DNA from: Thalassospira sp. MCCC 1A03138
GTDB taxonomy: Bacteria; Pseudomonadota; Alphaproteobacteria; Rhodospirillales; Thalassospiraceae
Assembly: GCF_002115785.1 (NCBI RefSeq)
Contig: NZ_JFJY01000002.1
Span: 558,001-622,000, forward strand
DNA length: 64,000 nt
Direction: 5' to 3'
Part shown: in pieces, positions 47,251 to 64,000 of the stretch
Layout: each line of letters starts with the position of its first letter
Position numbering within the stretch: position 1 is the first letter of the stretch
Program-made: the position numbers and the translations under genes
The notes under the pieces: generated by a model
Told to the model about the DNA's origin: nothing
Databases searched by the model: none
Seen by the model: the letters and a program-made list of their open reading frames with translations, nothing else

Positions 47251-47255
47251 GACAC

Positions 47256-49121
47256 ATGTCAGGTGATCGGTCACTACTGGTACGTCCTAAGCCGGAAAAG
47301 GCTGAGAGCTTCCGAGGATATCTGCTCAGGGTTTCGACGGAAAATGGTTATCACAATGCAAACTGGATGCTGAGGCAGCTTGGTATTCATCCACGCACAT
47401 ATTTGCCGCGTGATGACATTGCAAAGTTGGCAAGCGCGCTAAATCTCCAGGACCGCGAGCTTTCAAATATGCAGAACCGAGTTGTGGCGCCTCGGTGGGT
47501 TCGTGTGGGGGCGCATGAAGTTCATATCTGTGCACAGGAAAGGCGTTCCTTTCGCTATTGTCCTGAATGCTTGAGCGAAGCTCCGTACCATCGTGCCGTG
47601 TGGGATCTCAAGCTTTTAAGTGCCTGCCCGAAACACGGGACATATCTGCTTGAAAGTTGCAGAAAATGTGATCGCCGTATTGGTTGGGGGCGTGAGAACC
47701 TTCTGGAGTGTAACTGTGGTGCGGATTTGAGGTCGTTCCGGCCGCGTTCAGCACCCGATAAAACAATAGGTTTCTGCAGGTTGCTGGAGAAGCGTCTCCA
47801 CGGTCAGCTGGCAGACGAAAGCTGCTCCTTGCATCCGGCATTTCAGAAGTTGAGTTTCACGGACCTTCTGAATCACACGATGTTCCTAGCGGCTTATATT
47901 TCAGGTCGAGGGCGTGGGACCGGCCGACAACTGTTTTACAATCTTGCCGCTGATGCGTTGCGTGAGGTGTTTGACCGGGTTTCTGTGATTCTTGCTGATT
48001 GGCCGAACGGGTTTCACTTGCTGCTTGATGAGGTGCGGCAATTCACCGAACAAGACGTTGGAAAACATGTCGGGCTCGAGGCAGAATTTCGATCGCTCTA
48101 CACCAATCTGTTTCGTAAGCAGCAGGAAGTTGAGCATCTACATCTCATCCGGGCCGAATTTGCCAAATACATTGAAGGCAAATGGTTTGCTGGGTTTGTC
48201 GTGCCAACCAGTAAACGACTGTCAGAGGAATGGTCCCAAGATCAGTCGTTTATTACGGTTGCGGAAGCAGCACGACGCCTTGGTATTCATCCAAGTATCC
48301 TGAGACGTGATATCGCCGAGGGAAGTTTGGCTGCAACCACGAGACAGATGCAAAGCAGATGTCTTCGCGTCATAGAGGTCTCGGAGGTTGAGCGGTACCG
48401 AAACGCGCGCGAAAACCTGCTTGGAACCAATGACGCTCAGGAACTGCTAGGCGTTTCAAAGCACCCACTCATGAAACTGGTGAACGCAGGCTTGATCAAA
48501 GCCGTCAAGGGGCCGAAGGTTGATGGTTCTCAGCACTGGGCCTTCAAAAAGTGTGATATCGGGGAATTTCTTGCATCCTTGATTAATCGTGCGAACCGAT
48601 ACAGTTCGGCAGAAGAACCGATAGCCTTTGATAAAGCAGTGCGCCGCTGTACGGCCAAGGGTCTTTGTATTGTTGACTTGGTACAGTCGATCCTAAGCGG
48701 AGAGCTAAAAGCTCTTAGGCACGCTAGGAACGGAATAAAGCTGAATGATCTGTTCTTCAATGAACCAGACTTTCGAGCTTTTCTATATAACGAGAAACGT
48801 ACTATCAAATGGGCTGTTACCATTCGTGAAGCTGCAAGAATGCTTGGGTTAAACGAAGAGGCAACACGTAATCTCGTGCAAAAAGGATTTCTTGAAACAA
48901 TCTCTGTTCCATTAGACGGGCGTCTTCGCAGGCAGGTTTCATTGGATGCGATCGAGGGGTTCAAAGCGAATTATATTTCAGCTTCCTGCTTGGCAGCACA
49001 TAAGAATACTTCGGCCAGATCTGTCGTTGCTCAGCTGAAGGAATTTGGGACCAGCCCTGTTACTGGGCCAGCGATTGATGGAAGTCGCCAATACTTCTTC
49101 AGAAGATCAGCGACAGGATAG
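47256..49121 (+). CDS. TniQ/TnsD-like target-selection protein with four HTH segments
   Basis: A protein of about 621 residues. The N-terminal TniQ domain has zinc-binding CPEC (about residue 101), a CPKH-type histidine, CRKC and CNCG cysteines. The rest is long, like TnsD, and holds four helix-turn-helix or excisionase-like segments at about 334 (VAEAARRLGIHPSILRRDI), 392 (AQELLGVSKHPLMKL), 522 (IREAARMLGLNEEATRNLV) and 574 (SCLAAHKNTSARSVV). TnsD-type proteins bind a conserved gene end and set the insertion point downstream. Here the likely site is the 3' end of gyrB. The start may be GTG 47247 or ATG 47256. A terminator follows. Confidence 0.88.
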   Translation: MSGDRSLLVRPKPEKAESFRGYLLRVSTENGYHNANWMLRQLGIHPRTYLPRDDIAKLASALNLQDRELSNMQNRVVAPRWVRVGAHEVHICAQERRSFRYCPECLSEAPYHRAVWDLKLLSACPKHGTYLLESCRKCDRRIGWGRENLLECNCGADLRSFRPRSAPDKTIGFCRLLEKRLHGQLADESCSLHPAFQKLSFTDLLNHTMFLAAYISGRGRGTGRQLFYNLAADALREVFDRVSVILADWPNGFHLLLDEVRQFTEQDVGKHVGLEAEFRSLYTNLFRKQQEVEHLHLIRAEFAKYIEGKWFAGFVVPTSKRLSEEWSQDQSFITVAEAARRLGIHPSILRRDIAEGSLAATTRQMQSRCLRVIEVSEVERYRNARENLLGTNDAQELLGVSKHPLMKLVNAGLIKAVKGPKVDGSQHWAFKKCDIGEFLASLINRANRYSSAEEPIAFDKAVRRCTAKGLCIVDLVQSILSGELKALRHARNGIKLNDLFFNEPDFRAFLYNEKRTIKWAVTIREAARMLGLNEEATRNLVQKGFLETISVPLDGRLRRQVSLDAIEGFKANYISASCLAAHKNTSARSVVAQLKEFGTSPVTGPAIDGSRQYFFRRSATG

Positions 49122-49389: not shown

Positions 49390-50883
49390 ATGTTCTGGGT
49401 AGGGATTCGACGCTTGGTGAAGTACACAAATAATCCACCTGATGCAGCTGCGCTTATGACTTCTGCGCGGAGCTTTGGAAATTACGATCTGCCAAGTGCA
49501 CTTGCTGATCTGTTGGATAATAGCATCAAGGCCAAGGCGTACTCTATTGATATTCTCTGTATTCGTCACGACGGCGAACCGGTAGTCCGAATTCTCGACG
49601 ACGGCCATGGCATGAGCGAAGAGGAACTTTATGATGCCATGCGACCTGCAAGTGCAAATCCAGATGACGAGCGCGCTCCCGACGATTTAGGGCGCTTTGG
49701 TTGGGGCATGAAGTCCGCGTCGCTTTCTCAATGTAGGCATTTAACTGTTCTGACGAGAAAGGAAGGCGTTCTTTCTGGTGCAAGTTGGGATCTTGATGAT
49801 CTTGCCGACTGGAAAATGGGGATACTCGAGCCCTTCGAAATTGAAAATATTGCGAACAGCAAGCTTCTTGAGCGTGATGGAACTGAAGTCATATGGACCA
49901 AATGCGACCGCCTTTCCGAGTTTGGAAGGGTTAGCAGCAAGGGCTTCAACGAGATAGTCGCGCACGCCAAGTCTGAATTGGCACTTACGTTTCACCGCTA
50001 TATTGCGGGGGAGTTCGGCCTCAGAAAGTTGAAGATCTCGTTCAATGGTGGGCTGCTTGCTCCTGTCGATCCGTTCTTGCGCGATCATTTGGCAACTCAG
50101 GAAGGTCCAGTGGAGCATCTCGAACTGGAAGGTAAACCGTTCAATGTTCAGGCCTTCATCCTGCCGCATTTCTCGAAGATTTCGTCACATGACCATGAGA
50201 GGTTGGGCGGTGAGGAAGGCTTCGTCCGAAACCAGGGTTTCTACATCTATCGGCAGAATCGCTTGATAATGCATGGCACTTGGTTTCGGCTGGTGCGACA
50301 TGGTGAGTTGTCTCAGTTGGTCAGGGTAGCCGTGAGCATCCCCAATAGCCTCGACGCAATCTGGAAGATTACGGTGGATAAGTCTGAAGCCCAGCTGCCA
50401 TCTGGATTGCGGTCACGATTGAAAGAAATCGTAAAGGGTCTCAAAAGCCAGTCTGGAAAAGTGTTTCAATCGCGCGGAGGTAGGATCAAGCCTACCGATG
50501 GTAAAACTCCAGTATGGGCAAAGTATGTCCGTAACGGTGAAGTTCGATATTACCTCAATCGCGAGCATCCCCTCATTTTGCAGTTGCTTGAGCATGAGAA
50601 TGCCGAAGTCGCCCAATCATTCATGGCTACACTGGGAGTTATTGAGGATTGCTTTCCGGCAATCAGCATTGGCGAAGATTTTGCTGTGAGGCCTGAGATG
50701 ATGAACCAGAGCGCTCTAGGTCGTGACGCTTTTATCGAACACCTCGAAACGGCCTTGCCATCTCTCCTCGCGCGCTCAGAAGGATCATTCGAGAAGTTGT
50801 GGGAATTACTTCAGGTGACTGAGCCGTGGGCAGGCCAAACATCTGTTGTCGAGGAACATTTGAAGTCGAAAGGATGGTGGTAG
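49390..50883 (+). CDS. GHKL ATPase (MORC/MutL/Hsp90-like) of a defence operon
   Basis: A 497-residue protein with an N-terminal GHKL ATP site: DLLDNSIKA (about residue 40), DDGHGM (about 71) and GRFGWGMKSAS (about 101). A transducer-like S5 fold follows. Bacterial relatives of eukaryotic MORC and MutL ATPases occur in predicted restriction-modification operons with Z1, PD-(D/E)XK, AIPR and Dcm genes, the same set as here. It probably acts as an ATP-driven clamp on DNA. AAGGAG directly abuts ATG 49390, so initiation at TTG 49414 or GTG 49417 is possible. The stop is immediately followed by the Z1 start. Confidence 0.87.
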   Translation: MFWVGIRRLVKYTNNPPDAAALMTSARSFGNYDLPSALADLLDNSIKAKAYSIDILCIRHDGEPVVRILDDGHGMSEEELYDAMRPASANPDDERAPDDLGRFGWGMKSASLSQCRHLTVLTRKEGVLSGASWDLDDLADWKMGILEPFEIENIANSKLLERDGTEVIWTKCDRLSEFGRVSSKGFNEIVAHAKSELALTFHRYIAGEFGLRKLKISFNGGLLAPVDPFLRDHLATQEGPVEHLELEGKPFNVQAFILPHFSKISSHDHERLGGEEGFVRNQGFYIYRQNRLIMHGTWFRLVRHGELSQLVRVAVSIPNSLDAIWKITVDKSEAQLPSGLRSRLKEIVKGLKSQSGKVFQSRGGRIKPTDGKTPVWAKYVRNGEVRYYLNREHPLILQLLEHENAEVAQSFMATLGVIEDCFPAISIGEDFAVRPEMMNQSALGRDAFIEHLETALPSLLARSEGSFEKLWELLQVTEPWAGQTSVVEEHLKSKGWW

Positions 50884-53589
50884 ATGCATGATGCAGAACT
50901 TGCCTATTTCCGTTTGAACATTGAACAAAAATACGCCGATCTTTTCGCGAGTGGCACGGGTTTGCCAGAAGGTACTATCGAAGAAATTGTGCGCGAAGGG
51001 CCTTTCAGTCATCTCGACGAGGAAGCAACAGTATTTATCATTCGCGAATTGCAAGCAAGTTTCAGGGTGACACAAAGACGTGGTGCCGTGATTTCTAAGG
51101 GACATCAGCCTTGGCTTTCAAAAAAGAAATCCGATCTGGAGTTTTATTACTGGAACCGTCTTAGTAAATTTTATCGAGAGACTGGAACTCTACCATCTAG
51201 CGTAGTAGCAACACTTGATTCTGACACCGATGAAATCCTTGATCTTTGTGGTGATCCTCTAGACCCGTCGTACCAAGCGGTCCGAGGGATGGTCATGGGC
51301 AACGTGCAGATGGGCAAAACAACCAATTATTCAGCCTTGATCTGTAAGGCTGCGGACGCTGGCTACCGAGTCATCATTCTTCTTGCTGGTATAACGAACT
51401 CTCTTCGGACACAAACGCAGGAACGTTTGGATGAAACTTTCATCGGAAAGGTTTCGGTTGCAAATGCCGCAGCTCAACAGTCTCTGCCGATCCAGAGGTT
51501 CGCAACAGAAAGGCGAATCCCGGCTGTCGGAACTACCAGAGATTCAGACTTCAAAGCCGGAAGGGACGGAATTTATTTCGGTTTGACGGGTCACCAAGAG
51601 CCGATGATTTTTGTGACCAAGAAGAACAAGTCTGTGCTTGAAAGACTTGAGAAGTGGATCGACGATCAAGAACAGACTGGTGGTTTTGAACTGCCGCTTC
51701 TTCTTATCGATGATGAGGCGGACAATGCGTCAATCAACACGGCAAAGGATCCAAAGCTCACGACTGCAATAAACGGGATTATTCGGCAGATTTTGAACCG
51801 TTTCCCAAGGTCCGTTTACGTTGGATATACAGCAACACCTTTTGCCAACATCTTCATCGATCCTGAAACGTCCGAAGATATGGAGCATGACGATCTGTTT
51901 CCTGGAAACTTCATCAAGGCCCTCGATCCGCCCTCAAATTATGTGGGCTCGCATCGGGTCTTTAGAGAAGACGGTGATTTGCGGGAGAATATGGTCAAAA
52001 CTGTTGATGACTATCGAGTGCTTTTGCCCCTCAAGCATAAGAGTGGCGATTTAGTAAGTGATTTACCCGAAAGTCTGAAGCACGCGATCCGGGTTTTCTG
52101 TTTAACTCGCGCAATTCGAGTTTTTCAAGGAAAGGGGCATGCACATTGTTCGATGATGATCAATGTCAGCCGTTTCAATGCCATTCAGACTCAAATTTTA
52201 GGCCATACTCATGAGTACCTTGGTGAACTAAAGTATGCAGTTTCGGTTCATGCTTCTCTCGATCCGGATAACATCCATGACGAGACGATGACTAAATTGC
52301 AGGAAAGCTTTGAGAGTGAATACTCCGACTTAGACTACAACTGGTCTGATGTGCTTTCAAATCTTAACGAAGGGATTCAGAGCATCGAGGTCCGTACTGT
52401 AAACATGCAAGGTGGAGTGCTTGACTATACGCTCAACAAAGAGCACGGCCTTCACGTCATAGCCATTGGTGGTCTTGCACTTTCCCGCGGTTTGACGCTC
52501 GAGGGACTGACCGTATCCTATCTCCTACGAAATGTGGGGGCGAGCGACACACTTATGCAGATGGCACGCTGGTTCGGTTATCGCCCCGGCTATGAGCACA
52601 TTTGTCGCCTGTACCTACCAAAGATGTCCTTCGATCACTACGAATATGTAGATGAGGCTACCGAGGAGCTTCGTAGAGAAGTCAAGCGTATGAAAGCTGC
52701 CAACAGTACACCGGCGGATTTCGGTCTTAAGGTTCGTCAAAGCCCTTTGGCAATCCGGGTGACGGCTGCCAATAAAATGCGGACGGCAGAAAAGCTGACT
52801 GTCGCTCAAGACTACTCCGCTCGTCACGTCGAAGGTCATGCGCTGCCAAATGATACCCAAAAAAGTGCTGAAAATTACGCATCCGTGTCGTCTTTCTTGG
52901 AGCAGTTCGGAGACCCTAAAAAAGCGACAAAAGGCTATCTTTTTTGGGATAATGTAAACGGTCGAGAAGTGTTGAACTTGATCGACAGGTTCAATTTTGG
53001 AGCACATGCCGATCTCTCCAAGATCTCGGATACATCTCTTTTTCAGGACTACATTCAAGATCGCATTTCTGGCGAAATGTCTGTTTGGGATGTCGCAATT
53101 CCAATGCGTCAGACTGATGGTAAACCACTGTTGTTTGCGGGCCAGAATCTCTCACTGAGAAGGCGAGAAAAGGGTTTGGTTAAAAATGGATCTTATAAGG
53201 TTTATGGCGGGAGGAGCAGGGTCGCTGATCAACCAGATGCTGAGATTGAACTTGATGAAGACCAAAAACGGATTGCAACTCAGCGAGTAGCCAATGACCA
53301 ATACAAAAAGGAGCGTGCGGCCTGTAGCGTTCGTAAGCGCCCGTTGATGCTAATTCATATCTTCGAGCCCAGTCTGCGTAACGACAAAGATCACAAAGAA
53401 CAGTCCGACGATATACTGAGAGTGGGTGATGTCGCTGTAACGTTGTCTTTCTGTCTGCCAGAGACCAAGCAGCCGGCAAAAGAGCACACTTACCAGGTTA
53501 ACGCAGTTTATCTGGCGCAACTTAGAGACCAGTACGAATTCGAAGAGGACGACGACGCCGAGGCTATGTTGGGGGAGCAAGATGCTTGA
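50884..53589 (+). CDS. Z1-domain superfamily II helicase-like ATPase
   Basis: A 901-residue protein. The Z1 domain (about residues 130-700) has Walker A in GNVQMGKTT (about 140), the Walker B-like LLIDDEADNAS (about 274) and helicase motif III-like YTATPFAN (about 315). Conserved arginine motifs follow in QMARWFGYRPGY (about 560). Z1 proteins are found in bacterial restriction-type operons. DNA translocation or remodelling is likely, coupled to the nuclease next door. It begins right after the GHKL stop and overlaps the PD-(D/E)XK gene by eight bases. Confidence 0.92.
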   Translation: MHDAELAYFRLNIEQKYADLFASGTGLPEGTIEEIVREGPFSHLDEEATVFIIRELQASFRVTQRRGAVISKGHQPWLSKKKSDLEFYYWNRLSKFYRETGTLPSSVVATLDSDTDEILDLCGDPLDPSYQAVRGMVMGNVQMGKTTNYSALICKAADAGYRVIILLAGITNSLRTQTQERLDETFIGKVSVANAAAQQSLPIQRFATERRIPAVGTTRDSDFKAGRDGIYFGLTGHQEPMIFVTKKNKSVLERLEKWIDDQEQTGGFELPLLLIDDEADNASINTAKDPKLTTAINGIIRQILNRFPRSVYVGYTATPFANIFIDPETSEDMEHDDLFPGNFIKALDPPSNYVGSHRVFREDGDLRENMVKTVDDYRVLLPLKHKSGDLVSDLPESLKHAIRVFCLTRAIRVFQGKGHAHCSMMINVSRFNAIQTQILGHTHEYLGELKYAVSVHASLDPDNIHDETMTKLQESFESEYSDLDYNWSDVLSNLNEGIQSIEVRTVNMQGGVLDYTLNKEHGLHVIAIGGLALSRGLTLEGLTVSYLLRNVGASDTLMQMARWFGYRPGYEHICRLYLPKMSFDHYEYVDEATEELRREVKRMKAANSTPADFGLKVRQSPLAIRVTAANKMRTAEKLTVAQDYSARHVEGHALPNDTQKSAENYASVSSFLEQFGDPKKATKGYLFWDNVNGREVLNLIDRFNFGAHADLSKISDTSLFQDYIQDRISGEMSVWDVAIPMRQTDGKPLLFAGQNLSLRRREKGLVKNGSYKVYGGRSRVADQPDAEIELDEDQKRIATQRVANDQYKKERAACSVRKRPLMLIHIFEPSLRNDKDHKEQSDDILRVGDVAVTLSFCLPETKQPAKEHTYQVNAVYLAQLRDQYEFEEDDDAEAMLGEQDA

Positions 53590-54568
53590 GCGATGGAGAT
53601 CTCTTAGCCCGGCACCCGAAATCGGCGCGCGCAATGTTCTCATTGCCGACAGTGCTCATCCACTCGATTTCCGGATCGGTCGAGATTGCCGTGGGCGTTT
53701 TGTTTTCATGCTTGATACAGATAAACCTGTCGACAAAAGACCAGTTCTTCCCAGTGTCAAGGGTATGTTGATCGAGCTGGAAAATTTGGCAAATGACCGA
53801 ACGCGTCTAGTTGTGGTCCTGCAAGATGATGCGGATCTTCAGAACTTCTCACTGATGTGTACTGGGTTGATGCTCGCAACCAATGCAATTTCGGCATCCC
53901 GATCACCTGAGGGTCTCCTAAAAACGCTCGAAGAACTGCATCGTTGGCACGAAATGTTGAAGAGACGTCGTGACAATCGACTAACCCGGAGCGAGAGGAT
54001 TGGTTTGGTCGGCGAGCTTCTGTTTCTAAGAGACGAGCTACTGCCGCGAATGGAAATCTTACCTGCACTTCTCGCTTGGACAGGGCATGAGGGGCACGAG
54101 CAGGACTTTGTAATTTCTTCAGCGATTTTTGAGGTGAAAACTCAAGTCGTAACCGCAGATCGCATGATTTCGATTTCATCTGAGGATCAGTTGGATCCTG
54201 TGCAGGGACGTATATTACTTTGCAACCAAGGCATTTCTCCAGTGCCAAGCGGCACATCCAATGCATGCACTCTCAATTCTATTGTGAAAGAACTGGTTGG
54301 CCTTGCTAAAGCTACTGGAGGTGCTGCATCTGATCTTCTTGCCATTGGGCTGTTGGAAGCAGGTTATGAGCCGCATGAAGAGTACGACGACGAGATCTGG
54401 ATGCTGGTGGACAGAGCTGTTTACGAAATCAGGGGTGATTTCCCACGTATAGAACGCGCCGAACTTAGGCACGGGGTGGAGCAAGTACGTTACAGAATCC
54501 GTGTTTCTGACTGTCAGCCCTACGGAGTAGACCTGCACTCGACTTTGGAGAAACTGATATATGGATGA
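53582..54568 (+). CDS. PD-(D/E)XK motif protein, probable restriction nuclease
   Basis: A 328-residue protein of the PD-(D/E)XK motif family (formerly DUF4420). The nuclease residues are plausible: glutamate in GELLFL (about residue 143), aspartate in HEQDFVI (about 174) and the E-x-K of FEVKTQ (about 182). This is the best candidate for the cutting subunit of the system. The gene overlaps Z1 upstream by eight bases and AIPR downstream by eight, so all four are one translational unit. Confidence 0.88.
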   Translation: MLERWRSLSPAPEIGARNVLIADSAHPLDFRIGRDCRGRFVFMLDTDKPVDKRPVLPSVKGMLIELENLANDRTRLVVVLQDDADLQNFSLMCTGLMLATNAISASRSPEGLLKTLEELHRWHEMLKRRRDNRLTRSERIGLVGELLFLRDELLPRMEILPALLAWTGHEGHEQDFVISSAIFEVKTQVVTADRMISISSEDQLDPVQGRILLCNQGISPVPSGTSNACTLNSIVKELVGLAKATGGAASDLLAIGLLEAGYEPHEEYDDEIWMLVDRAVYEIRGDFPRIERAELRHGVEQVRYRIRVSDCQPYGVDLHSTLEKLIYG

Positions 54569-56639
54569 TCTGGATGTGGCGTTTCAGGATCTACGCGAAG
54601 ATGTAATGCTTGAGGCAGAAGCAAGTGGATTGTTTCAGGAAGAGGCGTTTTTTGAAATATACGCCGAGGCCGCGAGCGAGAACGGCGACACAATAGATCT
54701 TGAGTACGCACATTGCAGAAAAGAAGGAGGTTCTCGACCTTATCGTGTAGATGGCCATGCGTTTGATGCGGATCGTGGGACGCTTTATTTAGCGGTCTGT
54801 GACTACCGGGAAGGAAAGGATCTACAGTCACTTCAGGCGTCACGGATTGATTCTGCACTGAAGCAGGCCACCAATTTTTTTGAGAATGCTCTCTCACCTG
54901 ATTTTATCAATGCGCTCGAAGATAGTAGTTCTGCGTTTTCAGCTGCCTATCCGATATATTCGAACCAGCATACCATCCGACGGTTACGTGTGATTTTATT
55001 GTCCAATGCTCGCCTCGTTGCTAGGAAGCCTCCACAGCTGGTGGCAAACGTTGCGGGGGTTCCTGTCGTTTATACAGTGCTCGACGTTGCTAGGTATGCT
55101 GAGATTCAGAGATCAAGGGCAGCACCTGAAGCTATCGAGGTTGATCTAGAAGAAATCTCCGGTAGTCCAATTCCTTGTCTAAGAGCTTCTCGCTCATCGG
55201 CTGATTATGAAGCCTATCTGTTGGCAATCCCAGGTGAACTGTTGGCCGAAGTTTATGGGCTCTATGGGGCACGTTTACTTGAACAGAATGTAAGAACCTA
55301 TCTCCAGGCAAGAACGAAGGTAAACAAGGGAATTCTTGCGACGATTCGCAAAGAGCCCGAGATGTTTTTCGCTTATAATAACGGTCTGACAGCGACGGCA
55401 TCCGGGGTAGAGCTCAAGGAGCTGGGTGACGGTCAGCTCGCCATCTCGGCCATTCGTGACCTTCAGATCGTGAACGGAGGGCAGACAACAGCTTCTATCC
55501 TGTATGCAAAGGATGTGGGAAAGGCTGCACTGGACCAAGTTCATGTTCAAATGAAGTTGTCGGTTGTACCCGAAAGTGCCGTCGAAAAAGTAGTCCCGCT
55601 TATTTCGCGCTATGCGAACACGCAAAACCGTATCTCTGAAGCAGATTTCTTCTCAAACCATCGATTTCATTTGCAGATGGAACGCTATTCGCGGGTTCTC
55701 GCAGCTCCGCCTCGGGATGGGGCGCTCTCAGGAGAGAAATGGTTCTATGAGCGTGCGCGGGGCCAGTACCAAGATGGTATGGCCTATGCTAGCCAGTCGG
55801 AAAGACGAAAGTACCAGGTTGAGTTTCCCAAGGCTAAAGTCATGGTCAAAACGGATCTCGCAAAATACGTGGTCACCTTCCATTGCCGTCCTGATATTGT
55901 CTCTAAAGGCGCGCAGAAATGCTTTATGCATTTCGCTGACGAAACGGTGAAGTCATGGAAAACCCATCAGGCCGACTACAACGAAACTTGGTTCAAAAAT
56001 GCGTGCTCTATGGCGCTGTTGTTCAGGTGGACTGACAAGATGATCGCGCAATCGGATTGGTATCAGCTTGATCGCGGTTTCAAGTCGCAGACTGTGGCCT
56101 ATACGATGGCTTGGCTTGCTCATCATGTACGGAGCATTGGGCAGGCGTCGCTCAACTGGGATATCATCTGGTCGTCGCAGGATGTACCTGATGAGCTTCA
56201 AGAGTTCATCATTACGCTTGCGCCTCAAGTGGCACGTGCGATTAGAAGCACCCCCACTAACGTGCGAAATGTGGGCGAGTACTGCAAAATGCAGGCTTGC
56301 TGGGAGGCAGTGTCAAAGGCTGACTTCGATGTGACAGCTCTCCCTGAACATGTTTTGGTCAGTGTCGATGAAGAAAAAGATTTGAGAAAAGACGGGCGTA
56401 ACACGAAAAAAATCGATAACGAGATTAATCTTGATGTCGTACTGCTTTCGATTGTCGCAAAAGCGGATATCGTTCGCAAAAATGCAAAAGAAAAACATCT
56501 TCTTACCGACAAATCGAATAGCGCCTTGGCGAAATTGGCCGTTGGAAATATCTCGCTTTCCAGACCTGAAAGGAATGCGATGAAACTTCTTATCGACCGA
56601 TTGGCTGAAGAAGGCACCCCGGTTGAGGTGCTTGGCTAG
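54561..56639 (+). CDS. AIPR-family protein
   Basis: A 692-residue protein of the AIPR (abortive infection phage resistance) family. The conserved core shows FAYNNGLTATA (about residue 270), LQIVNGGQTTAS (about 306) and YANTQNRIS (about 350). Founding members gave phage resistance by abortive infection, but the molecular activity is not settled. It is the last gene of the GHKL-Z1-nuclease-AIPR operon and is convergent with the methyltransferase gene 45 bases away. The 3' end is lysine-rich. Confidence 0.9.
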   Translation: MDDLDVAFQDLREDVMLEAEASGLFQEEAFFEIYAEAASENGDTIDLEYAHCRKEGGSRPYRVDGHAFDADRGTLYLAVCDYREGKDLQSLQASRIDSALKQATNFFENALSPDFINALEDSSSAFSAAYPIYSNQHTIRRLRVILLSNARLVARKPPQLVANVAGVPVVYTVLDVARYAEIQRSRAAPEAIEVDLEEISGSPIPCLRASRSSADYEAYLLAIPGELLAEVYGLYGARLLEQNVRTYLQARTKVNKGILATIRKEPEMFFAYNNGLTATASGVELKELGDGQLAISAIRDLQIVNGGQTTASILYAKDVGKAALDQVHVQMKLSVVPESAVEKVVPLISRYANTQNRISEADFFSNHRFHLQMERYSRVLAAPPRDGALSGEKWFYERARGQYQDGMAYASQSERRKYQVEFPKAKVMVKTDLAKYVVTFHCRPDIVSKGAQKCFMHFADETVKSWKTHQADYNETWFKNACSMALLFRWTDKMIAQSDWYQLDRGFKSQTVAYTMAWLAHHVRSIGQASLNWDIIWSSQDVPDELQEFIITLAPQVARAIRSTPTNVRNVGEYCKMQACWEAVSKADFDVTALPEHVLVSVDEEKDLRKDGRNTKKIDNEINLDVVLLSIVAKADIVRKNAKEKHLLTDKSNSALAKLAVGNISLSRPERNAMKLLIDRLAEEGTPVEVLG

Positions 56640-56684
56640 AGATCGCTTTCGCCCCTTCTGATCAAGCCAACATTTAGGCCTTCT

Positions 56685-58178
56685 TTATCCCAAAACTTTG
56701 TAAACTGCTTTAGCTATTTGCCATGCTAGGTACGGTGGTACCGCATTGCCCACTTGATGATATTGTTTGGTTCGAGATCCGCAGAATAAATAGTTGTCAG
56801 GGAATGTTTGCAAGCGGGCAGCCTCCCTTACGGTGAGTGAGCGGCACTGGCCGGGATCGGGATGGATAAAATAATGACCATCCTTGGATATGTGACTTGT
56901 GACAGTGGTCGATGGGCGTCCACTCAGTTGGGTGCGGAAACGGTCGGAAAAATGGCCAGAATCACGGTTCTTGTGAGCCGGCTGCAAAAAATCTGGAAAC
57001 TCGTCCAGTTTCGGGGAACGTGAGTACGAGCTGGAAAAAGCGGAAGAGAAAAGGTAGCGACCGATATCTTCCGGGATATGTCCTCGGGTTTCATGATGCA
57101 GCGTTGCCCGAAGTCGTTCATCATCGAACCACCTAAGGAGATGTTTTGGCATATTGCCAGCAATCGCCTTCTCGCGACTTGACCTTGCTTCAGGCAATTT
57201 GGTGGCAGAAGAAATCCTTTGAGCGATATTCCTTACTTCTTCTGGAGTGTTTCCAGCTCTGGCAATGCGTATAGCCTGTTCACGAACAGCAGCTTTCCAA
57301 GCTTCTGTTGTATCGCCACGGCTGAGTCCACTGCGGAGCGGTGAAAGACCGTCAATTGCGGTGCCCACGTCCACTTGCTTTTGGGTAGCGCCGAGAAGTG
57401 GACCGTCGAGTTTCAGGCGTTGAGCGAGATCCACCCTAACTCCGAGAATGATAACTCGATGGCGGGCTTGGGGAACTCCAAAGTCTTCTGACCGTATCAG
57501 AAAGTCTTTGGCCGAAGCTCGGGAGCCATCGAGAGGGGCGGAAGTTGCGAGCGGTAACAAACGGTACCCGTCTCCCGCCTCCTCAAGATCATCGAGGACT
57601 TTGCTGAAAATCCGACCGCCATTAATTTGGCTCGAGAGCATCCCCTTAACATTTTCCATCACAAAGGCCGCAGGGCGAAGCCGGTCTAGAATGCGCACAT
57701 ACTCGCGATATAGAAAATGCCGATTATCATCCTCGGGAACGTAACCTGCCTTGCCCCGATTTCTCGATCTTCCAACTAACGAATATGCTTGGCAGGGAGG
57801 TCCTCCGATCAAGATTGTATCGCCGTGATGACGTTCGCGCACTTGGTCTAGTTCGGTCGCTAGTTCCTCGAATACACCGTCGCTCCCCAAGACGCGTTGA
57901 CGTACCTCCTTAGCCGCAACTTTCCAATTGTTGGGATAGAGGTCGGCCCAGTCAGGAAGCTCAAGACCACTATTGAGAGCGACATAATATTCTTGAGGAA
58001 ATCGATCAAAGGACCGCAGGAAGGCCCTCAGTCGCAACGTTTGAATTGCATGGTCATCCATCTCGATTGAGAGATGGGTCTTCATTGGGGTTTCCTTGTC
58101 GCGTCCTGCCCTTGAAAATCCTTCACTCAGCCCTCCTGGCCCGGCGAACAAATCAATGATGGCAAAATCTTTGGACAT
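56685..58178 (-). CDS. DNA (cytosine-5) methyltransferase, Dcm-like
   Basis: A 497-residue C5-cytosine methyltransferase. Motif I is DLFAGPGGLSEGF (residues 9-21). The catalytic cysteine is in GGPPCQ (Cys129), motif VI is MENVKG (about 170), and QVGNAVPP closes the enzyme (about 478). It would protect host DNA from the linked nuclease. The recognition site is unknown. CCAGG in its own control region and a Vsr partner hint at CCWGG. It is transcribed divergently from vsr across a repeat-bearing 91-base region. Confidence 0.93.
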   Translation of the reverse strand: MSKDFAIIDLFAGPGGLSEGFSRAGRDKETPMKTHLSIEMDDHAIQTLRLRAFLRSFDRFPQEYYVALNSGLELPDWADLYPNNWKVAAKEVRQRVLGSDGVFEELATELDQVRERHHGDTILIGGPPCQAYSLVGRSRNRGKAGYVPEDDNRHFLYREYVRILDRLRPAAFVMENVKGMLSSQINGGRIFSKVLDDLEEAGDGYRLLPLATSAPLDGSRASAKDFLIRSEDFGVPQARHRVIILGVRVDLAQRLKLDGPLLGATQKQVDVGTAIDGLSPLRSGLSRGDTTEAWKAAVREQAIRIARAGNTPEEVRNIAQRISSATKLPEARSSREKAIAGNMPKHLLRWFDDERLRATLHHETRGHIPEDIGRYLFSSAFSSSYSRSPKLDEFPDFLQPAHKNRDSGHFSDRFRTQLSGRPSTTVTSHISKDGHYFIHPDPGQCRSLTVREAARLQTFPDNYLFCGSRTKQYHQVGNAVPPYLAWQIAKAVYKVLG

Positions 58179-58204
58179 CGTTTCTCCCCATAATGTCGAG
58201 CCTT

Positions 58205-58234
58205 TTACCAGGTTTCACCAAGTGTCACCAGGTG
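58205..58234 (+). promoter_or_regulatory. Three 10-bp iterons between the methyltransferase and vsr genes
   Basis: Three direct copies of TYACCARGTK (TTACCAGGTT, TCACCAAGTG, TCACCAGGTG) follow one another at exactly 10-bp spacing, one helical turn. The outer two contain CCAGG. This sits in the divergent promoter region and looks like an operator, possibly for autoregulation by the methyltransferase. Confidence 0.55.
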
Positions 58235-58269
58235 GAAAATAAGCTTGATTGCGCTATGTTTGTGAAATC

Positions 58270-58737
58270 ATGGATATAGTTGACTCTAAAACACGCTCCA
58301 GAATGATGTCTGGCATCAGGAGCAGAAACACGAAACCAGAGGTTCTGCTGAGAAAAGCACTGCACGCTGTGGGCTATCGCTACAGAATCAATGTACGTCT
58401 GTTGCCGGGCTCACCGGACATAGTGCTGCCGAAGTGGCGAGTTGTGATTTTCGTGCACGGTTGCTTTTGGCATCGTCATCCGGACTGCAAGAAAGCGACG
58501 ACACCGGCAACAAACACTGATTTCTGGACTAAGAAATTTGCGGCCAATACCAAGAGAGATAAAACAGCGATAGAGGAATTGCATAACTTGGGTTGGCGCA
58601 CTGCAATTGTATGGGAGTGTGCTATTGGGACAAAGATTGATTTTGAGCTGATCGATGACTTAGCTAGCTTCATAAGCCAAACTGCTAAACAGCATGTCGA
58701 ATTAGGTGCTCCTCAGAAAGGCTATACTCAACGCTAG
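58270..58737 (+). CDS. vsr: Very short patch repair endonuclease
   Basis: A 155-residue mismatch nicking enzyme that repairs T:G pairs formed when 5-methylcytosine deaminates. The family sequences are clear: TRSRMMSGIRSRNTKPE at the start, the LPGSPDIVLP strand with the catalytic aspartate, the zinc-binding HGCFWHRHPDC and the ending GWRTAIVWECA. ATG 58270 (MDIVDSKTRS) fits homologues better than ATG 58249. Vsr normally accompanies a C5-methyltransferase, here the divergent neighbour. Confidence 0.94.
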   Translation: MDIVDSKTRSRMMSGIRSRNTKPEVLLRKALHAVGYRYRINVRLLPGSPDIVLPKWRVVIFVHGCFWHRHPDCKKATTPATNTDFWTKKFAANTKRDKTAIEELHNLGWRTAIVWECAIGTKIDFELIDDLASFISQTAKQHVELGAPQKGYTQR

Positions 58738-58896
58738 CCTCAATGAGTATCTTGGAGCGTGATATCCGGTTCGATGCATAACAAGATTACACTACAAGTG
58801 AATTCGACACATAATCTTCGAAATTTGTAGCGTTTTTCTCAAATTGGATATGCTGTAAGCATTTGATTTTATGAATTTTATAAGGAATAGAGAGAA

Positions 58897-59000
58897 TTCC
58901 AAGATTATGCTTCAAACCTTTTCAGCATAATGTGTCGCAAAGTTCGAGGTTTCGTTGGCAAACGGTGGTCTGAGTTTCTGGATTTATGCGTCAATTCACA
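58897..59000 (-). repeat. Transposon right end with TnsB-type repeats
   Basis: In inverted orientation the terminus reads TGTGAATTGAC, and the first 18-bp repeat (58976-58993) is nearly identical to those of the left end. Weaker copies lie at 58921-58936 and 58897-58914 (TGAAGCATAATCTTGGAA). A further degenerate copy in the other orientation lies at 58806-58823. The right end is looser than the left, as in Tn7, where the two ends differ. Confidence 0.78.
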
Positions 59001-59005
59001 CGTGT
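59001..59005 (+). repeat. Target-site duplication, right copy (CGTGT)
   Basis: Matches 30801-30805 exactly and follows the last base of the right terminus. Confidence 0.88.
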
Positions 59006-59031
59006 TGTGAATTGACGCATAAAATTAGAAT
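59006..59031 (+). repeat. Third copy of the transposon terminus (orphan left end)
   Basis: TGTGAATTGACGCATAAA appears again in left-end orientation immediately after the duplicated target. The 18-bp core is 59013-59030. No second repeat follows at the expected 21-22 bases. It looks like the remnant of an older, related element at the same gyrB site. Confidence 0.7.
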
Positions 59032-59336
59032 GGGCAGAGCAAGTTCATCTGATTGAGATGAGTGCGCTCTGTTCTATCTTTTATGCTGAGATTTTTGCGA
59101 CGAACTGTCTGGTTGCCGAATACGGATATTAGCTCCTGCGCATGCATAAACAGATTCTGAGAGGTTTCGGTGATGCTTCTTCTTAATGGGGAGTTGCATC
59201 GAATCTTCAATTGCCAGTTCTCGGATCAAGTCTTCCAATGTTGAACCTTGAAAAGATAATCTTATAAATCTTGGTACGTATTCGCCAAAGGATTTTCCCT
59301 GTGCTTTCTATTGCAGAGGGATTATATAGTTTTATT
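59032..59336 (-). other. Region after the orphan terminus, no convincing gene
   Basis: A 61-codon frame (59210-59025, minus strand) without recognisable domain or good ribosome binding site fills part of it. A weak dyad (CAGAGC at about 59034 with GCTCTG at about 59069, and an inner CATCT/AGATG) might be the old gyrB terminator. The sequence may be debris of an earlier insertion. Confidence 0.35.
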
Positions 59337-60197
59337 TTAATTGCATGTATCCCAGGTTTCTTTCCATAATTTTTCAGTTTCCTTGCTTGCTTTCAGTTTT
59401 GTAGTATAAATTTTCGAATTTTTCTTAAATACTTCGATGAACAGGTAATCAATCGATAATTTTGCAATTTGTAAGGTTATTGAATAAATTAGTTTCAAGT
59501 AATCAGGAAGGGTTCTGCTGCATTTTATTTGCGATATTATTGTGAATTTTCTACTAACAATACGCTTCTGAAAATTGAAAAAATCTTCCCGATATCCAAG
59601 AAGGACTTCGGGTAATACGGCGAAACAGCTATGCTTATAAGATCGCAGTAACACATCATAGTCTTGTGATTTAAACTGATTCTCATCATACCGGAAATGT
59701 CTAAACCACTCTATTTTTCCCATCCAAGTAGGGTGAGGTAACTCAAACCCGGACAATGGGCTTTTGCAAATAGATTTATGATCTGATGGAAGGTCGCGGA
59801 CGCCGATTGCTTCTCCGTTATCTCTAAAGATAAGCAAGCTAGTTCCAAGTAAATCTATACTCGGGTGTGACTCTAGAAAATCAACTTGCTTATGGATGCG
59901 TTCCGGAAAACAAATATCGTCACCATCCATTCTCATGAAATATTTTCCGGCTGAAGTATCTATTGCTTGGTTTAGTCGATAAGCTAGACCGCGACAATTT
60001 TGATGGTGGGAGAACTTTATTCTGCTATCCGAGAATTTATCGATAATAGATCTCGTGTTATCTGTGGACCCATCATCAATTATAATTAGTTCCCAAAATG
60101 GGTAAGATTGATTCAATATTGAATTAATTGCTGCCGAAATAGTATTGGCGCTATTATGAACAGACATTCCAATGCTGACTAGGGGAGTGTTTTTCAT
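59337..60197 (-). CDS. Glycosyltransferase family 2
   Basis: A 286-residue GT-A fold enzyme. The N-terminal VSIGMSVHNSANTISAAI strand-helix, the nucleotide-sugar IIIDDGSTDNT motif (about residues 38-48) and the FMRMDGDDICFPE metal-binding DxD region (about 91) are typical of family 2. A C-terminal hydrophobic segment may touch the membrane. It belongs to an AT-rich, minus-strand polysaccharide cluster and would add a sugar to a surface glycan. Donor and linkage are unknown. Confidence 0.9.
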   Translation of the reverse strand: MKNTPLVSIGMSVHNSANTISAAINSILNQSYPFWELIIIDDGSTDNTRSIIDKFSDSRIKFSHHQNCRGLAYRLNQAIDTSAGKYFMRMDGDDICFPERIHKQVDFLESHPSIDLLGTSLLIFRDNGEAIGVRDLPSDHKSICKSPLSGFELPHPTWMGKIEWFRHFRYDENQFKSQDYDVLLRSYKHSCFAVLPEVLLGYREDFFNFQKRIVSRKFTIISQIKCSRTLPDYLKLIYSITLQIAKLSIDYLFIEVFKKNSKIYTTKLKASKETEKLWKETWDTCN

Positions 60198-60468
60198 GTA
60201 AACATCTCTATTTATGCTTTTTATGGATATTTTCGCGAGAAGAATGGTTGGATATATTATTATTTATCTTATCACCAAAATCCCTAACTCAATAATCATA
60301 GCATTTCATCGGATGATGCTAATGATATGTATAAAAATCAAGTAATGAAATTATATTTTAGTTTTATGTGTGTAATTAAATTATTCAGACAAATAAATAT
60401 TCACTATGCTATATTGGATTATTATTTCTGATTGTCGCGATTTATCGACATAGAACGAAAAGCTTCCA

Positions 60469-61650
60469 TTATAAGTCGGGAAACATTCGTCCTGGAATTC
60501 CTTTTGCTGTGAATGTGTGGTGCCCTAGAAATCTCCAAGAAAGTTCAAAAACCAGTCTACGCGCCGCTCTTGGGCCACGTCTTTTTCCAAAAATTACGCA
60601 AAGTAATCCGCAAATGATTTTTCTAATAACAGTTAATAAATATGTCTTTCTATGATCTTTTATCGATTTTTCAAGGGTGCCATTGTTGTCTTTTTTCACG
60701 TCATACGCCTCTATTGATGAGGAGTAATTCAAAATGGATTTCATTCTATTGACATATGTGTGTTCTCTGGCAGTTCTGGAGAAGCCGTTCTGGGCTATAT
60801 CGTCTCTTTCTTCTGGGTTTGCTAGATAATATTTTATTAGGTCTTCCAACTCTTTATCGGTATCAAATATTATGACTTCTTTACCATTTTCGTAAAATTT
60901 CTCGATGTTCCGAGCATTTTCCGTAACTAGAAACCCACCGCAACCAGGCACCTCGAACGTTCTTGCTTTAATTTGGTTCTCACCGTACGAGTTGGCAAAG
61001 TTAAGGCTTATTTTTGAGTTTCTTATAATGAACGGTATTCGTTCTGCGGGTACGGGTCCTGCAGGCCATCCGTGACCAAAACATGCCACTTCTATACCGT
61101 TTTTCTTTAGCTCTTCTACTCTTTTGATCCGTGAGCCGTGAGCTGCCCCTACAAAACTAACTTCATACTGACAATCTTTTGCGGATAGAGGCTCAGAAAG
61201 CCAATTTTCCGGTGCAGCCCATTGAGTTAGCAAAACGTTTCTAATGCCATCTTTATGATAGCGAGGAACTATATAATCATATGTGGTGGTCATCACGTGG
61301 TAGTGACGGCCAATAAACTTAGAAACTTCTTTGTACTTCCACGAATCATCCGCTGCCCAAGAAATGGTTTTAACGCCATCTCTTGCCGAGATAATATCGA
61401 TAGTTTCCGCCCATATTTCGTAGCTCATATGAACAGTTAGAATTATTTCCGGTTCGAATGTAATAACTGTTTCTAAGAGTTTCTTATTCAAATCCGAAAA
61501 ATCTCTATAATTATCTTTGTCCCATGACTCGAAATGAAGCACCTCATGGCCAAGTTTCTTTAGAGCAGGTATAAATGAAACATATTCTATGCCCAATCCT
61601 CTGCTTGGATCTCCATATTGATGTTTTCCAAAGACACAGAGAATTCTCAT
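60469..61650 (-). CDS. CgeB-like glycosyltransferase (GT-B fold)
   Basis: A 393-residue protein. The opening MRILCVFGKHQYGD, the central VSFVGAAHGSR strand and the C-terminal-domain NFANSYGENQIKARTFEVPGC segment (about residues 225-245) match the spore-maturation CgeB/DUF3880-type glycosyltransferases. GT-B enzymes bind the donor in that C-terminal half, with the conserved glutamate in ARTFEVPG. It overlaps the upstream methyltransferase gene by four bases, so it is in the same operon. A 271-base AT-rich gap separates it from the next gene downstream. Confidence 0.83.
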   Translation of the reverse strand: MRILCVFGKHQYGDPSRGLGIEYVSFIPALKKLGHEVLHFESWDKDNYRDFSDLNKKLLETVITFEPEIILTVHMSYEIWAETIDIISARDGVKTISWAADDSWKYKEVSKFIGRHYHVMTTTYDYIVPRYHKDGIRNVLLTQWAAPENWLSEPLSAKDCQYEVSFVGAAHGSRIKRVEELKKNGIEVACFGHGWPAGPVPAERIPFIIRNSKISLNFANSYGENQIKARTFEVPGCGGFLVTENARNIEKFYENGKEVIIFDTDKELEDLIKYYLANPEERDDIAQNGFSRTAREHTYVNRMKSILNYSSSIEAYDVKKDNNGTLEKSIKDHRKTYLLTVIRKIICGLLCVIFGKRRGPRAARRLVFELSWRFLGHHTFTAKGIPGRMFPDL

Positions 61651-62381
61651 TTAAATCCTTTTTGTGCGACTATGTGATATCCAACCGTAAATTTCTTTTC
61701 CGCATCATATTTGTCAAGTATGCGAGAGATAATTGGTATTGCTATGGCAAGAATTGGTGATAGCGCGATCCATATTGGTAACCACAGTAGTCGACTTATA
61801 ACGTTCGTTTTTAACTTCCACGGCTTAGTGGATGCGACAAACCGTATGCTCTCTTGAGAGAAAAACGCATAAGATCCTCGGTTTTCTTCAACCTGGATTT
61901 CCTTAAATCCATTTCTTTCCAAAACGGATTTATACCAAAAAGGCGTGAAACCACCATAATAGTGGTGTGGTTCTTGATGTATCCCTGATCCGAGTGGCGC
62001 AGAAAGTAAAACTTTCCCACCCGGTTTAAGTATTCTGCTGAACTCTTCTATCACTTTAATTGGTTCAAGGATGTGTTCTAATACTTCGGTGCATATAATT
62101 ACATCAAAGCTAGCGTCTTCTACTGGGATAGAAGATGCATCACATACATAGTCTATTTGACCATAAGAACCATTTCGCAGCTGACTGGAGGTTAGCTGCT
62201 GAAAATCTTGGGTTTTGTATTCACAGTGCTGTAATTGATTCCGATATGGACATGATCCCGCGCCGACATCCAAGACTTTGCTTCCTGCCGGAAGTTGGCG
62301 ACACTGAGAAGATACCCAAATATCTCGCTCATATAGGTTGTAAGCCCAAACTGAATGTATTGCTTTACGAACTGACTTCAT
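61647..62381 (-). CDS. Class I SAM-dependent methyltransferase
   Basis: A 244-residue methyltransferase of the UbiE/Methyltransf_11 type. Motif I reads VLDVGAGSCPYR (about residue 36), and the acidic VIICTEVLEHI strand (about 93) is typical. A hydrophobic stretch near the C-terminus (residues about 195-220) suggests membrane association. It probably methylates a sugar or lipid-linked intermediate of the surface glycan. It overlaps both neighbours by four bases. Confidence 0.85.
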   Translation of the reverse strand: MKSVRKAIHSVWAYNLYERDIWVSSQCRQLPAGSKVLDVGAGSCPYRNQLQHCEYKTQDFQQLTSSQLRNGSYGQIDYVCDASSIPVEDASFDVIICTEVLEHILEPIKVIEEFSRILKPGGKVLLSAPLGSGIHQEPHHYYGGFTPFWYKSVLERNGFKEIQVEENRGSYAFFSQESIRFVASTKPWKLKTNVISRLLWLPIWIALSPILAIAIPIISRILDKYDAEKKFTVGYHIVAQKGFK

Positions 62382-63145
62382 GACTTCCTAACAAATACAT
62401 ACATACCGCATGCGTAAGAATTATCCGCTGCATCTAAAGGCTCGGCTTTCTCGAAATAGTTGCCGAGATCGTCTACAAAGCTGAAGCTCTCTAAATCCAG
62501 TTCGGGAAACATATCTATAAACTTTACAGGATCGAATATCCGATGTGCATTAAAACACACTTTCTCTTCGCCTACGGGTACAGAAATATACAGTCTCCCC
62601 CCAGGAGAGATAACGCGTTCTAATTCTTTCGCGGCCTGCAAGCTGCCGGTCGGGGTTATGGGGTCTCCATAGCGGCCAAGGCCTACATGTTCAATCACAT
62701 GCATGCAAGACAGGGAGCTTATGCTTCTGCTTGTTCTAGACAGATTTAGTAAATCGTCACCAAGGCATGTGAGGCCGGAGATGTTTACATTTAGTGGTCT
62801 AAAATCGAGAAATTCGACAGGTACAAAAGCTGATAAAACATTGATGGTTTTAATGTCTGAACCTATATCGACGTGATTGTGTGGTTTGCTGCTTGCAAGT
62901 TTGCGTGACAGCCAAGCCGCTTGATAAAAATAATGGGGATCAAAGCTTGTTTGAGAAGTTTTGTCTCCTAGGCAAGGATAGCTATCCAAGAAACTAGCTT
63001 TCCCTCCTAGTGCTACAAATCGCCTCCAGTCCAGAAAATAGGAGGGAAAATATAATAAACATATAAAGAAACTGTGTAAATTCAGGGAAGTAATCCAGTT
63101 CTTTATTAGATTTTTGTTTTTTCTAAGCATAACTATCGCACGCAC
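62378..63145 (-). CDS. DUF268-family protein, methyltransferase-like
   Basis: A 255-residue protein of the DUF268 family, common in polysaccharide loci and built like a degenerate methyltransferase. HVDIGSDIKTI (about residue 90) corresponds to motif I, and the SCMHVIEHVGLGRYGDP sequence (about 145) is the family signature. The canonical glycine-rich loop is poor, so SAM binding is uncertain. An N-terminal hydrophobic stretch (about 22-40) is present. It overlaps the next glycosyltransferase by 13 bases. The start could also be the methionine five codons later. Confidence 0.83.
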   Translation of the reverse strand: MRAIVMLRKNKNLIKNWITSLNLHSFFICLLYFPSYFLDWRRFVALGGKASFLDSYPCLGDKTSQTSFDPHYFYQAAWLSRKLASSKPHNHVDIGSDIKTINVLSAFVPVEFLDFRPLNVNISGLTCLGDDLLNLSRTSRSISSLSCMHVIEHVGLGRYGDPITPTGSLQAAKELERVISPGGRLYISVPVGEEKVCFNAHRIFDPVKFIDMFPELDLESFSFVDDLGNYFEKAEPLDAADNSYACGMYVFVRKS

Positions 63146-63936
63146 CTACAATTGGAAATATGTGTGCCTTTTTCAGCATGCGAATTGATAAATCTTTGGA
63201 ATATCCTTGCTCTGACTCTTGCCCAAGCAAAGTAATAATACCTCGATAATCGTTTTTCATAATTTCTACTGAATTTCTCTGAAATTTCTTTCTTCTCTTC
63301 TTTGTATTGGGTCGACTTACCAATTGAGATTTGATTGGAGTGTTTTCTATAGGCACTGAAAACTTTTGGAATGTATTCCGATTTTCCAATGCTGGAAAGT
63401 TTAAGGAAGAAGTCAAAATCCGCCGCATACTTGATGTTAGAATTTATGCCACCAACGCTGTGGTATAAAGAACTCCTCCAAAAACAAGCATCTTGAAGAG
63501 GAGTCCATGCCCCATATAACATCATTTTCTCTATGTTGCTTGTTCCACCACAGCTTCGAAACAAGACGTGGCTGGTTTCGTCGATGTAATAATCGTCACC
63601 AAATATCCAATCAACATCGGATTTTATAAATTTCTCGCGCGCTGTATCAAGCGCACCATCGAGCAACAGGTCGCTTGAATTAATCCAAGCCATAATATCA
63701 CCGGTTGCACGTGCAAATCCCTTTGAAATAGCATCAGCGTATCCGTTGTCCGGGCAGCTGACCCAGCCGGTTATATGTTTTTCGTATTTTTTGATGATAT
63801 CAACGCTATTATCATGCGATCCACCATCAATTACGAAGTATTCATCTCCTTTCTTCAGGTTAATCAAAACAGATTCGATTGTTTCCGCTAGAAATTGACC
63901 GGAATTATAGTTTGGGGTGACAATAGAAAATTTCAT
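63133..63936 (-). CDS. Glycosyltransferase family 2
   Basis: A 267-residue GT-A enzyme. It begins MKFSIVTPNYNSGQFLAETI, with EYFVIDGGSHDNS (about residue 32) in the donor site and the metal motif region ATGDIMAWINSSD (about 77-89), where SSD replaces the usual DxD. This WcaA-like branch often appears in O-antigen and exopolysaccharide loci. It is the first complete gene of the visible operon on this strand; another reading frame ends seven bases upstream. Confidence 0.9.
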   Translation of the reverse strand: MKFSIVTPNYNSGQFLAETIESVLINLKKGDEYFVIDGGSHDNSVDIIKKYEKHITGWVSCPDNGYADAISKGFARATGDIMAWINSSDLLLDGALDTAREKFIKSDVDWIFGDDYYIDETSHVLFRSCGGTSNIEKMMLYGAWTPLQDACFWRSSLYHSVGGINSNIKYAADFDFFLKLSSIGKSEYIPKVFSAYRKHSNQISIGKSTQYKEEKKEISEKFSRNYEKRLSRYYYFAWARVRARIFQRFINSHAEKGTHISNCRCVR

Positions 63937-63943
63937 TTTTAAT

Positions 63944-64000
63944 TTACCGAAGCCAATTTCTTCTAATTTTGGAAAATTCTTCGATCAGTTCATAGATGCC
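63944..64000 (-). CDS. C-terminal fragment of an upstream cluster gene (runs off window)
   Basis: On the minus strand the last 57 bases are an open frame ending GIYELIEEFSKIRRNWLR with a TAA at 63944-63946, seven bases before the glycosyltransferase start. Spacing and strand fit the preceding operon gene. The tail resembles the end of a nucleotide-sugar epimerase/dehydratase, but 18 residues are too few to decide. Confidence 0.45.
   Translation of the reverse strand, partial: GIYELIEEFSKIRRNWLR

Follow-up and report, generated by a model that had tools for sequence, protein, structure and literature searches.

The window analysed here, a stretch of 64,000 nt from Thalassospira sp. MCCC 1A03138 (genome G000), carries gyrB downstream of genes for DnaA, DNA polymerase III beta and a RecF-type protein (SMC_N). 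Behind gyrB lies a Tn7-like element of 28.2 kb with CGTGT on both flanks, followed by a further copy of its end motif and by a block of sugar-polymer genes. The features are, from left to right:

28334-30793 (+): gyrB, Pfam DNA_gyraseB, DNA_gyraseB_C and Toprim; its 3' end marks the attachment site
30801-30805 (+): left copy of the target duplication CGTGT, 7 nt after the gyrB stop; an identical CGTGT stands in the element-free genome G027
30806-30873 (+): left end of the younger element, three transposase-type sites as direct repeats (30813-30830, 30834-30851, 30856-30873)
30871-30904 (+): terminator-like hairpin right behind these sites; identical 34 nt behind the one-site relic of G015
31000-40370 (+): cargo, namely solute-binding proteins, ABC permease and ATPase, histidine kinase and sigma-54 response regulator
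43597-44244 (+): tnsA, Pfam Tn7_TnsA-like_N, 3.1e-14
44223-46243 (+): tnsB in two frames (44223-44930, 44870-46243), Pfam Mu-transpos_C and rve, the latter below its curated cut-off (26.3 vs 32.6 bits)
46240-47250 (+): tnsC (TniB-type ATPase), Pfam TniB, 2.4e-30
47247-49121 (+): tnsD (TniQ), whose product presumably reads the 3' end of gyrB, Pfam TniQ, 3e-16
49390-58737 (mixed strands): cargo, namely MzaB-MzaC-MzaD-MzaE type defence genes, cytosine methylase (-) and Vsr endonuclease (+), from PADLOC and Pfam
58852-59000 (-): right end of the younger element, E 3.3e-35 with a profile of five right ends that includes this one
59001-59005 (+): right copy of the target duplication CGTGT, from the sequence
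59006-59030 (+): putative left-end relic of an older element, one transposase-type site, 0 mismatches over 18 nt, left-end profile E 0.011; same position in G027
59027-59079 (+): putative terminator-like hairpin of the older left end, GGGCAGAG type, -23.0 kcal/mol, then TTTATGCTG
59337-64000 (-), on to L034:16898 beyond the window: sugar-polymer module, with glycosyltransferases and a methyltransferase

We found that the younger element has what defines a Tn7-like transposon: genes for a TnsA endonuclease, a TnsB DDE transposase, a TnsC ATPase and a TniQ/TnsD selector, TGT/ACA ends with several transposase-type sites, and a 5-nt target duplication. It does not sit at glmS, the attachment site of Tn7 proper, but at gyrB. 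We did not observe CRISPR-Cas genes or tnsE among the ORFs searched with Pfam, a general rather than a dedicated search, and a plasmid search gave no matches to the tns region. The sites of the left end are spaced by 21 and 22 nt, and this three-site array is common to eight relatives. Among the 28 relatives compared, tnsC has copies of 95% identity in G004, G008 and G017, with all other matches at 33% or less. The gene order of the 31000-40370 cargo is kept in G004 and behind the left end of G015, a genome without close tns homologues, and that of the Mza-type defence block (49390-58737) is shared with contig C10 of G017 and with G022. A Fic gene is also carried by the element.

In an alignment with G004, G008, G013 and G017, tnsB of the window is 4 nt shorter between 44861 and 44862, which places its two halves in different frames. 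Since this frameshift makes present activity of the younger element doubtful, it may no longer be self-mobile, barring an assembly error in tnsB.

The junction at 59001-59079 and its counterpart in G027

The earlier note had described a recurrence of the end motif, in left-end orientation, right after the right target copy, and the recurrence proved to be exact over 18 nt. TGTGAATTGACGCATAAA lies at 58983-59000 (-) and 59006-59023 (+) with 0 mismatches each, and at 30806-30823 (+) with 1 mismatch; the third copy starts at the base after the second CGTGT. At up to 3 mismatches the window holds three matches against 0.07 expected, a number reached by 0 of 100 shuffles, and at up to 2 mismatches these three sites are the only ones in the whole source genome. 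Together with the right end, the third copy forms a palindrome, the 25-nt arms 58976-59000 and 59006-59030 being 88% complementary across a gap of 5 nt (-19.9 kcal/mol and z -7.7 when folded as single-stranded DNA). Judged by its profile score, the single site would on its own be weak evidence for an older element. The site and the hairpin 3' of it also match the gyrB left ends of G008 and G009, so that the homology exceeds 18 nt.

The state of the locus without the younger element was found in G027, another Thalassospira and the closest at gyrB among the 28 relatives (98%; 97.7% over the last 2093 nt of the gene). G027 has no 28-kb element; it has CGTGT, a copy of the motif with two base differences and the same genes beyond, and the site reads gyrB-TTATCGGCGTGT-TGTGAATTTATGCATAAAATTAGAATGGGCAGAGC. 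When the flanks of the window are joined with the element left out, they align to G027 at 93% across TTATCGGCGTGT and the relic; starting at the second CGTGT, the two genomes stay collinear for 21.4 kb, at 95.4%. Because G027 carries the motif and the same following genes without the element, the motif is older than the insertion: the third terminus was present before the younger element, unless G027 lost that element precisely.

This order of events bears on the possibility that the younger element made the third terminus itself, as an aborted, one-ended or duplicated left end. Such an origin would account for an 18-nt tip identical to the younger right end and palindromic with it. However, barring precise loss, G027 has the terminus without the element, and the hairpin behind the terminus is of the GGGCAGAG type, whereas that of the younger left end is of the CCATGG type. 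We therefore consider a self-made terminus highly improbable.

We are instead highly confident that 59001-59079 marks where one Tn7-like insertion behind gyrB abuts an earlier one, which has been reduced to a left-end relic. An older element would have inserted 12 nt after the gyrB stop and then lost its tns genes and its right end, while its left end would have shrunk from three transposase-type sites to one with the terminator-like hairpin kept; the relic looks as if the DNA from site 1 to site 3 had dropped out. A younger TnsABCD element would later have inserted at the same fixed distance, duplicating CGTGT and shifting the old left end 28.2 kb from gyrB. Its TnsD presumably recognises the 3' coding end of gyrB, and since this end is intact after insertion, the site would stay open.

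Left ends and stacks behind gyrB in the genus and the order

Of 29 genomes, 15, among them the source genome, have a left end no more than 23 nt past the gyrB stop: 13 at 11-14 nt and the others at 17 and 23 nt. A reversed-pattern control gave 0 in all 29 genomes. Thirteen genomes, including G007 and G001 with their empty sites, have no match to the motif at up to 1 mismatch; in these two, a transglycosylase gene (identified by Pfam on the copy of the source genome) follows gyrB within 150 nt. This gene is present in 19 of the 30 stretches compared (29 genomes, one split over two contigs), the remaining 11 possibly ending too early, and where it is present the interval from gyrB ranges from 0.1 to 45 kb.

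The earlier note had held that finding the 59006 motif in genomes that never carried such elements would speak against a stack; the motif is missing from these 13 genomes. The same observation weighs against the idea that the motif is native sequence 3' of gyrB that resembles the element tip or is mimicked by the element. Loosely similar letters do occur in some host terminator regions, at 13941 in G022 (4 mismatches), behind the right end on contig C10 of G017 and behind gyrB in G023. Position 13941 of G022 was tried as an extra left end and rejected; by eye it aligns with the host terminator regions of G017 C10 and G023. Yet both empty sites lack the motif, and the hairpin type of the relic, together with three sites, makes up the left end of a two-ended element in G008. 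Native sequence is thus a very improbable source of the third terminus.

Both ends and an exact 5-nt duplication are present in G000, G008 and G013. The 17-kb element of G008, flanked by AGGTG, lies between gyrB and the next gene, with G007 as the corresponding empty site. Further stacks were also observed. In G004, gyrB is followed by a 62.3-kb tns-bearing element, 2 nt, an 11.3-kb element without tns, TTGAC and host sequence; both tandem elements have both ends, and their tips are 2 nt apart, not 5. The genes carried by the second one also occur in G002, where they follow a lone left end, and in G006, where they precede a lone right end. In G022, the tips are absent: an inner right end of the window type is joined directly to the inner portion of a GGGCAGAG-type left end, with GCATAA common at the join. 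Contig C11 of G024 reads right end, CATTT, left end; this contig lacks a demonstrated link to gyrB, and the left end at gyrB in G024 is preceded by TGAGG, not CATTT. Altogether, a right-end/left-end junction was found in 4 of 29 genomes by a whole-genome pattern at up to 1 mismatch and by profiles over the gyrB stretches, a search that more decayed junctions may escape. The pre-insertion site of G027 and the tandem of G004 support the proposal of the earlier note that two insertions occurred at one fixed gyrB-linked site, the newcomer on the gyrB side and abutting the older left end.

A tandem may also result from recombination between chromosomes with different gyrB elements rather than from a second transposition. 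Cargo blocks are indeed shuffled among genomes, and later change is evident in the 2-nt spacing of G004 and in the fused junction of G022. At each CGTGT copy and along the flank as far as gyrB, however, the window agrees with G027, as expected from a clean insertion, and we regard recombination as an unlikely origin of this stack.

For G017 we make no claim of stacking: the left end and the tns contig C10 are separate contigs, with CGTTG and GATGT, respectively, as duplications. On C10 (L053 14608-14640), GATGT and after it CGTTG come next to the right end, and the left end at gyrB has CGTTG, a 5-nt offset.

In the genus, a complete left end consists of three sites at intervals of about 22 nt, with a terminator-like hairpin, of one of several types, that begins in or just behind the third site. 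The GGGCAGAG-type hairpin seen at 59027-59079 is also present in G027; in G008 and G009 it follows three sites, and in G022 a third site. The one-site state of the window relic recurs in G015, G003 and G005; the hairpin of the G015 relic is that of the younger left end of the window, and G003 has the hairpin type of G004. Three sites are found in all five genomes with close tns homologues (G000, G004, G008, G013 and G017; partial in G013 and on another contig in G017). Ten genomes with a left end at gyrB lack close tns homologues; there are three sites in G002, G009, G020 and G024, and fewer in G003, G005, G015, G016, G027 and G028.

The entire interval from gyrB to the transglycosylase gene was available for eight of these genomes without close tns (G002, G003, G005, G009, G015, G016, G027 and G028), and in six of the eight a mismatch scan and profiles detected no right end. 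In G028, a 9.2-kb island has as its right boundary, about 9.24 kb after gyrB, an inverted left-end-type array (E 3.1e-11), after which the host sequence of the empty site resumes (L055/L056). Position 10905 of G002 was considered as a right end and rejected: it has 4 mismatches, and it was not counted because chance matches with 4 mismatches also occur (G008 16662 and 48218; G028 14163 and 16783).

At a threshold of -18 kcal/mol, chosen after values from an earlier, looser scan were known, all 15 left-end genomes have a strong hairpin with a T-rich tail no more than 170 nt from the gyrB stop, compared with 12 of 14 others and 31 of 400 random stretches. The looser scan was discarded, as 22 of 40 random windows matched. 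None of seven inner flanks of right ends reached -18 kcal/mol. Since 12 of the 14 other genomes also have the hairpin, a terminator as such does not set left-end genomes apart; its position directly behind the left-end sites does.

Several left-end-like sites were noticed elsewhere. G003 (L065) has left-end-like motifs 74 and 8440 nt past the gyrB stop (2 and 1 mismatches, left-end orientation), the latter at a gene-block boundary and followed by a terminator-like hairpin; they are possible deeper strata and were left out of the junction count. Away from gyrB, such sites occur in G027 (C1 near 3864751; L098 2680-2770), G016 (C16; L099 near 1790), G013 (C7; L100 near 1680) and G009 (C5; L101 near 1630), with a hairpin seen by eye in L098, L100 and L101. 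The L100 tip is a few nt past the stop of a gene that by eye encodes a divergent polysaccharide deacetylase, and the L101 tip precedes a gene (by eye an aminotransferase) 94-95% identical to one behind gyrB in six other species.

Across the order, 11 of 317 genomes have a TnsD match at E 1e-60 or better, and six of the 11 lie outside Thalassospira. Five of these six homologues (G151, G286, G089, G154 and G059) lie within about 13 kb downstream of gyrB; the sixth, in G168, lies downstream of a gyrB/parE-type paralogue of 47% identity, best read as parE. Both G286 and G089 have their left end 14 nt past the gyrB stop, and an exact 5-nt duplication stands at the right end of each. In G286, which belongs to another family, the right end is followed by CTTTG and then by one left-end site and a hairpin resembling the third site and hairpin of the element's own left end, a stack like that of the window. 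Inverted right-end-like sites were also seen inside the G286 element, 6964 and 7019 nt past the gyrB stop (L105/L106). On contig C9 of G168 (L111), three left-end-like sites stand directly after the stop of the paralogue, with the related TnsD downstream; the G168 element is likely to be a parE-site relative of the gyrB-site elements.

Sugar-polymer genes, target immunity and left-end retention

The sugar-polymer module extends from the relic to L034:16898, where the next conserved gene, the transglycosylase, follows at L034:17178. The part beyond the window encodes a glycosyltransferase, a DegT aminotransferase, a GDP-mannose dehydratase and a polysaccharide flippase. The GC content of the module is 41.4%, against 53.2% upstream of the younger element. 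At E 1e-20, the glycosyltransferase gene at 60469-61650 is found in only two of 29 genomes, G000 and G027; the other genes of the module were compared across the gyrB stretches.

The earlier note had suggested that these genes are cargo of the older element, had proposed to look past position 64000 for a matching right end with another CGTGT and for a second tns set or its remains, and had counted a lack of further end repeats against the stack. Neither a right end nor its duplication was found up to and past the next conserved gene or to the contig end, 49.9 kb from gyrB, by mismatch scan and profiles. The 58.9-kb stretch of G027 likewise showed no older right end, save a 4-mismatch match past the next gene that has a counterpart in G008. 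Searches by tblastn with TnsA, both TnsB pieces, TnsC and TnsD gave nothing outside the younger element in the source stretch and nothing in that of G027. Further end repeats are thus lacking, as in the objection raised by the note, over the 49.9 kb from gyrB to the contig end. With no matching right end or far-side duplication, we class the older element as a relic only. Moreover, judged from G007, host homology restarts 49 nt beyond the target, so that a deletion must be assumed.

We moderately favour, as the simplest reading, the view that the sugar genes arrived as cargo of the older element, which would have lost its right end and tns genes by deletion: their position between the relic and the next conserved gene and their AT-richness agree with the suggestion, and our confidence goes no further because the right end and tns remains are missing. 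Alternatively, the stack may be real and the sugar genes not cargo: homologous recombination, or some other process, may have placed them between the relic and the next gene. Recombination commonly exchanges surface-sugar loci, a general tendency that fits such an arrival, as do the missing right end, tns remains and host sequence at the right edge. On the other hand, the next conserved gene directly follows gyrB, or gyrB and an element, in G007, G008 and G001, so the sugar module entered at this site. Furthermore, in G004 an 11.3-kb gene block at the same site is bounded by both ends, and its genes also stand behind the lone left end of G002 and before the lone right end of G006. This alternative is the less probable of the two, and still a substantial one.

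Contrary to the earlier note, the stack in the window does not imply that target immunity failed or was specific to the newer transposase. The resident, as preserved in G027, is a one-site relic without tns, so that no breach of immunity is needed. The resident in G004, with both ends and very similar sites 2 nt from the newcomer, is a different case, in which either immunity was weak or the specificity of TnsB differed.

If the left-end hairpin terminates transcription of gyrB after an insertion has moved the native terminator away, loss of this hairpin would be selected against. We tentatively propose that the left-end terminator replaces that of gyrB, that selection retains decayed left ends as strata and that one-site relics let newcomers past immunity; we rate this model as possible rather than probable. 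If true, each insertion would leave a lasting stratum pushed outward by the next newcomer, and past Tn7-like invasions across an order could be read, layer by layer, from the gyrB interval. Two questions can now be tested: the number of transposase sites that a resident needs for immunity, and whether left-end terminators persist for the benefit of the host gene.

Comparison with known systems

The younger element resembles Tn7 and Tn7-like elements of the TnsABC+TnsD type in its TnsA, TnsB, TnsC and TniQ/TnsD, in its TGT...ACA ends with several transposase-type sites, in its 5-nt duplication, and in its one fixed place and orientation behind a conserved gene. It differs in the target, the 3' end of gyrB instead of glmS (Tn7 and Tn6171) or parE (some I-F3 CASTs). 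According to an excerpt of its description, Tn6171 is inserted 25 nt after glmS with a 5-nt duplication (PMC8190619), and a passage of PMC11406308 mentions a parE-targeting TnsD. Among the matches listed from the open-licence literature we saw no mention of gyrB as a Tn7-like site, although it may be listed as one elsewhere. The word 'gyrase' is absent from the main text of PMC10293859 and PMC8649781, and 'gyrB' from both and from PMC11406308, while an excerpt of PMC12452197 has gyrB beside Tn7-like transposons as a phylogenetic marker. The gyrB site, with homologues in other families of the order, would add to those used by TnsD-type selectors, as one so far without a report in the open-licence literature searched.

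The stacking of Tn7-like elements is itself already known. Parks and Peters are said to have described, in 2007, genomic islands that arise from repeated Tn7-like insertion beside an existing element. An excerpt of PMC8649781 likewise states that one Tn7-like element may insert adjacent to another, giving several ends. The locus studied here shares with such islands a newer element adjoining an older one and multiple left and right ends. It differs from them in that its resident consists of one left-end site and a hairpin, and in that the pre-insertion state is preserved in a sister genome. Both states of a stacked Tn7-like insertion are therefore available, the relic alone in G027 and the relic with its newcomer in the window, together with a tandem of two elements in G004.
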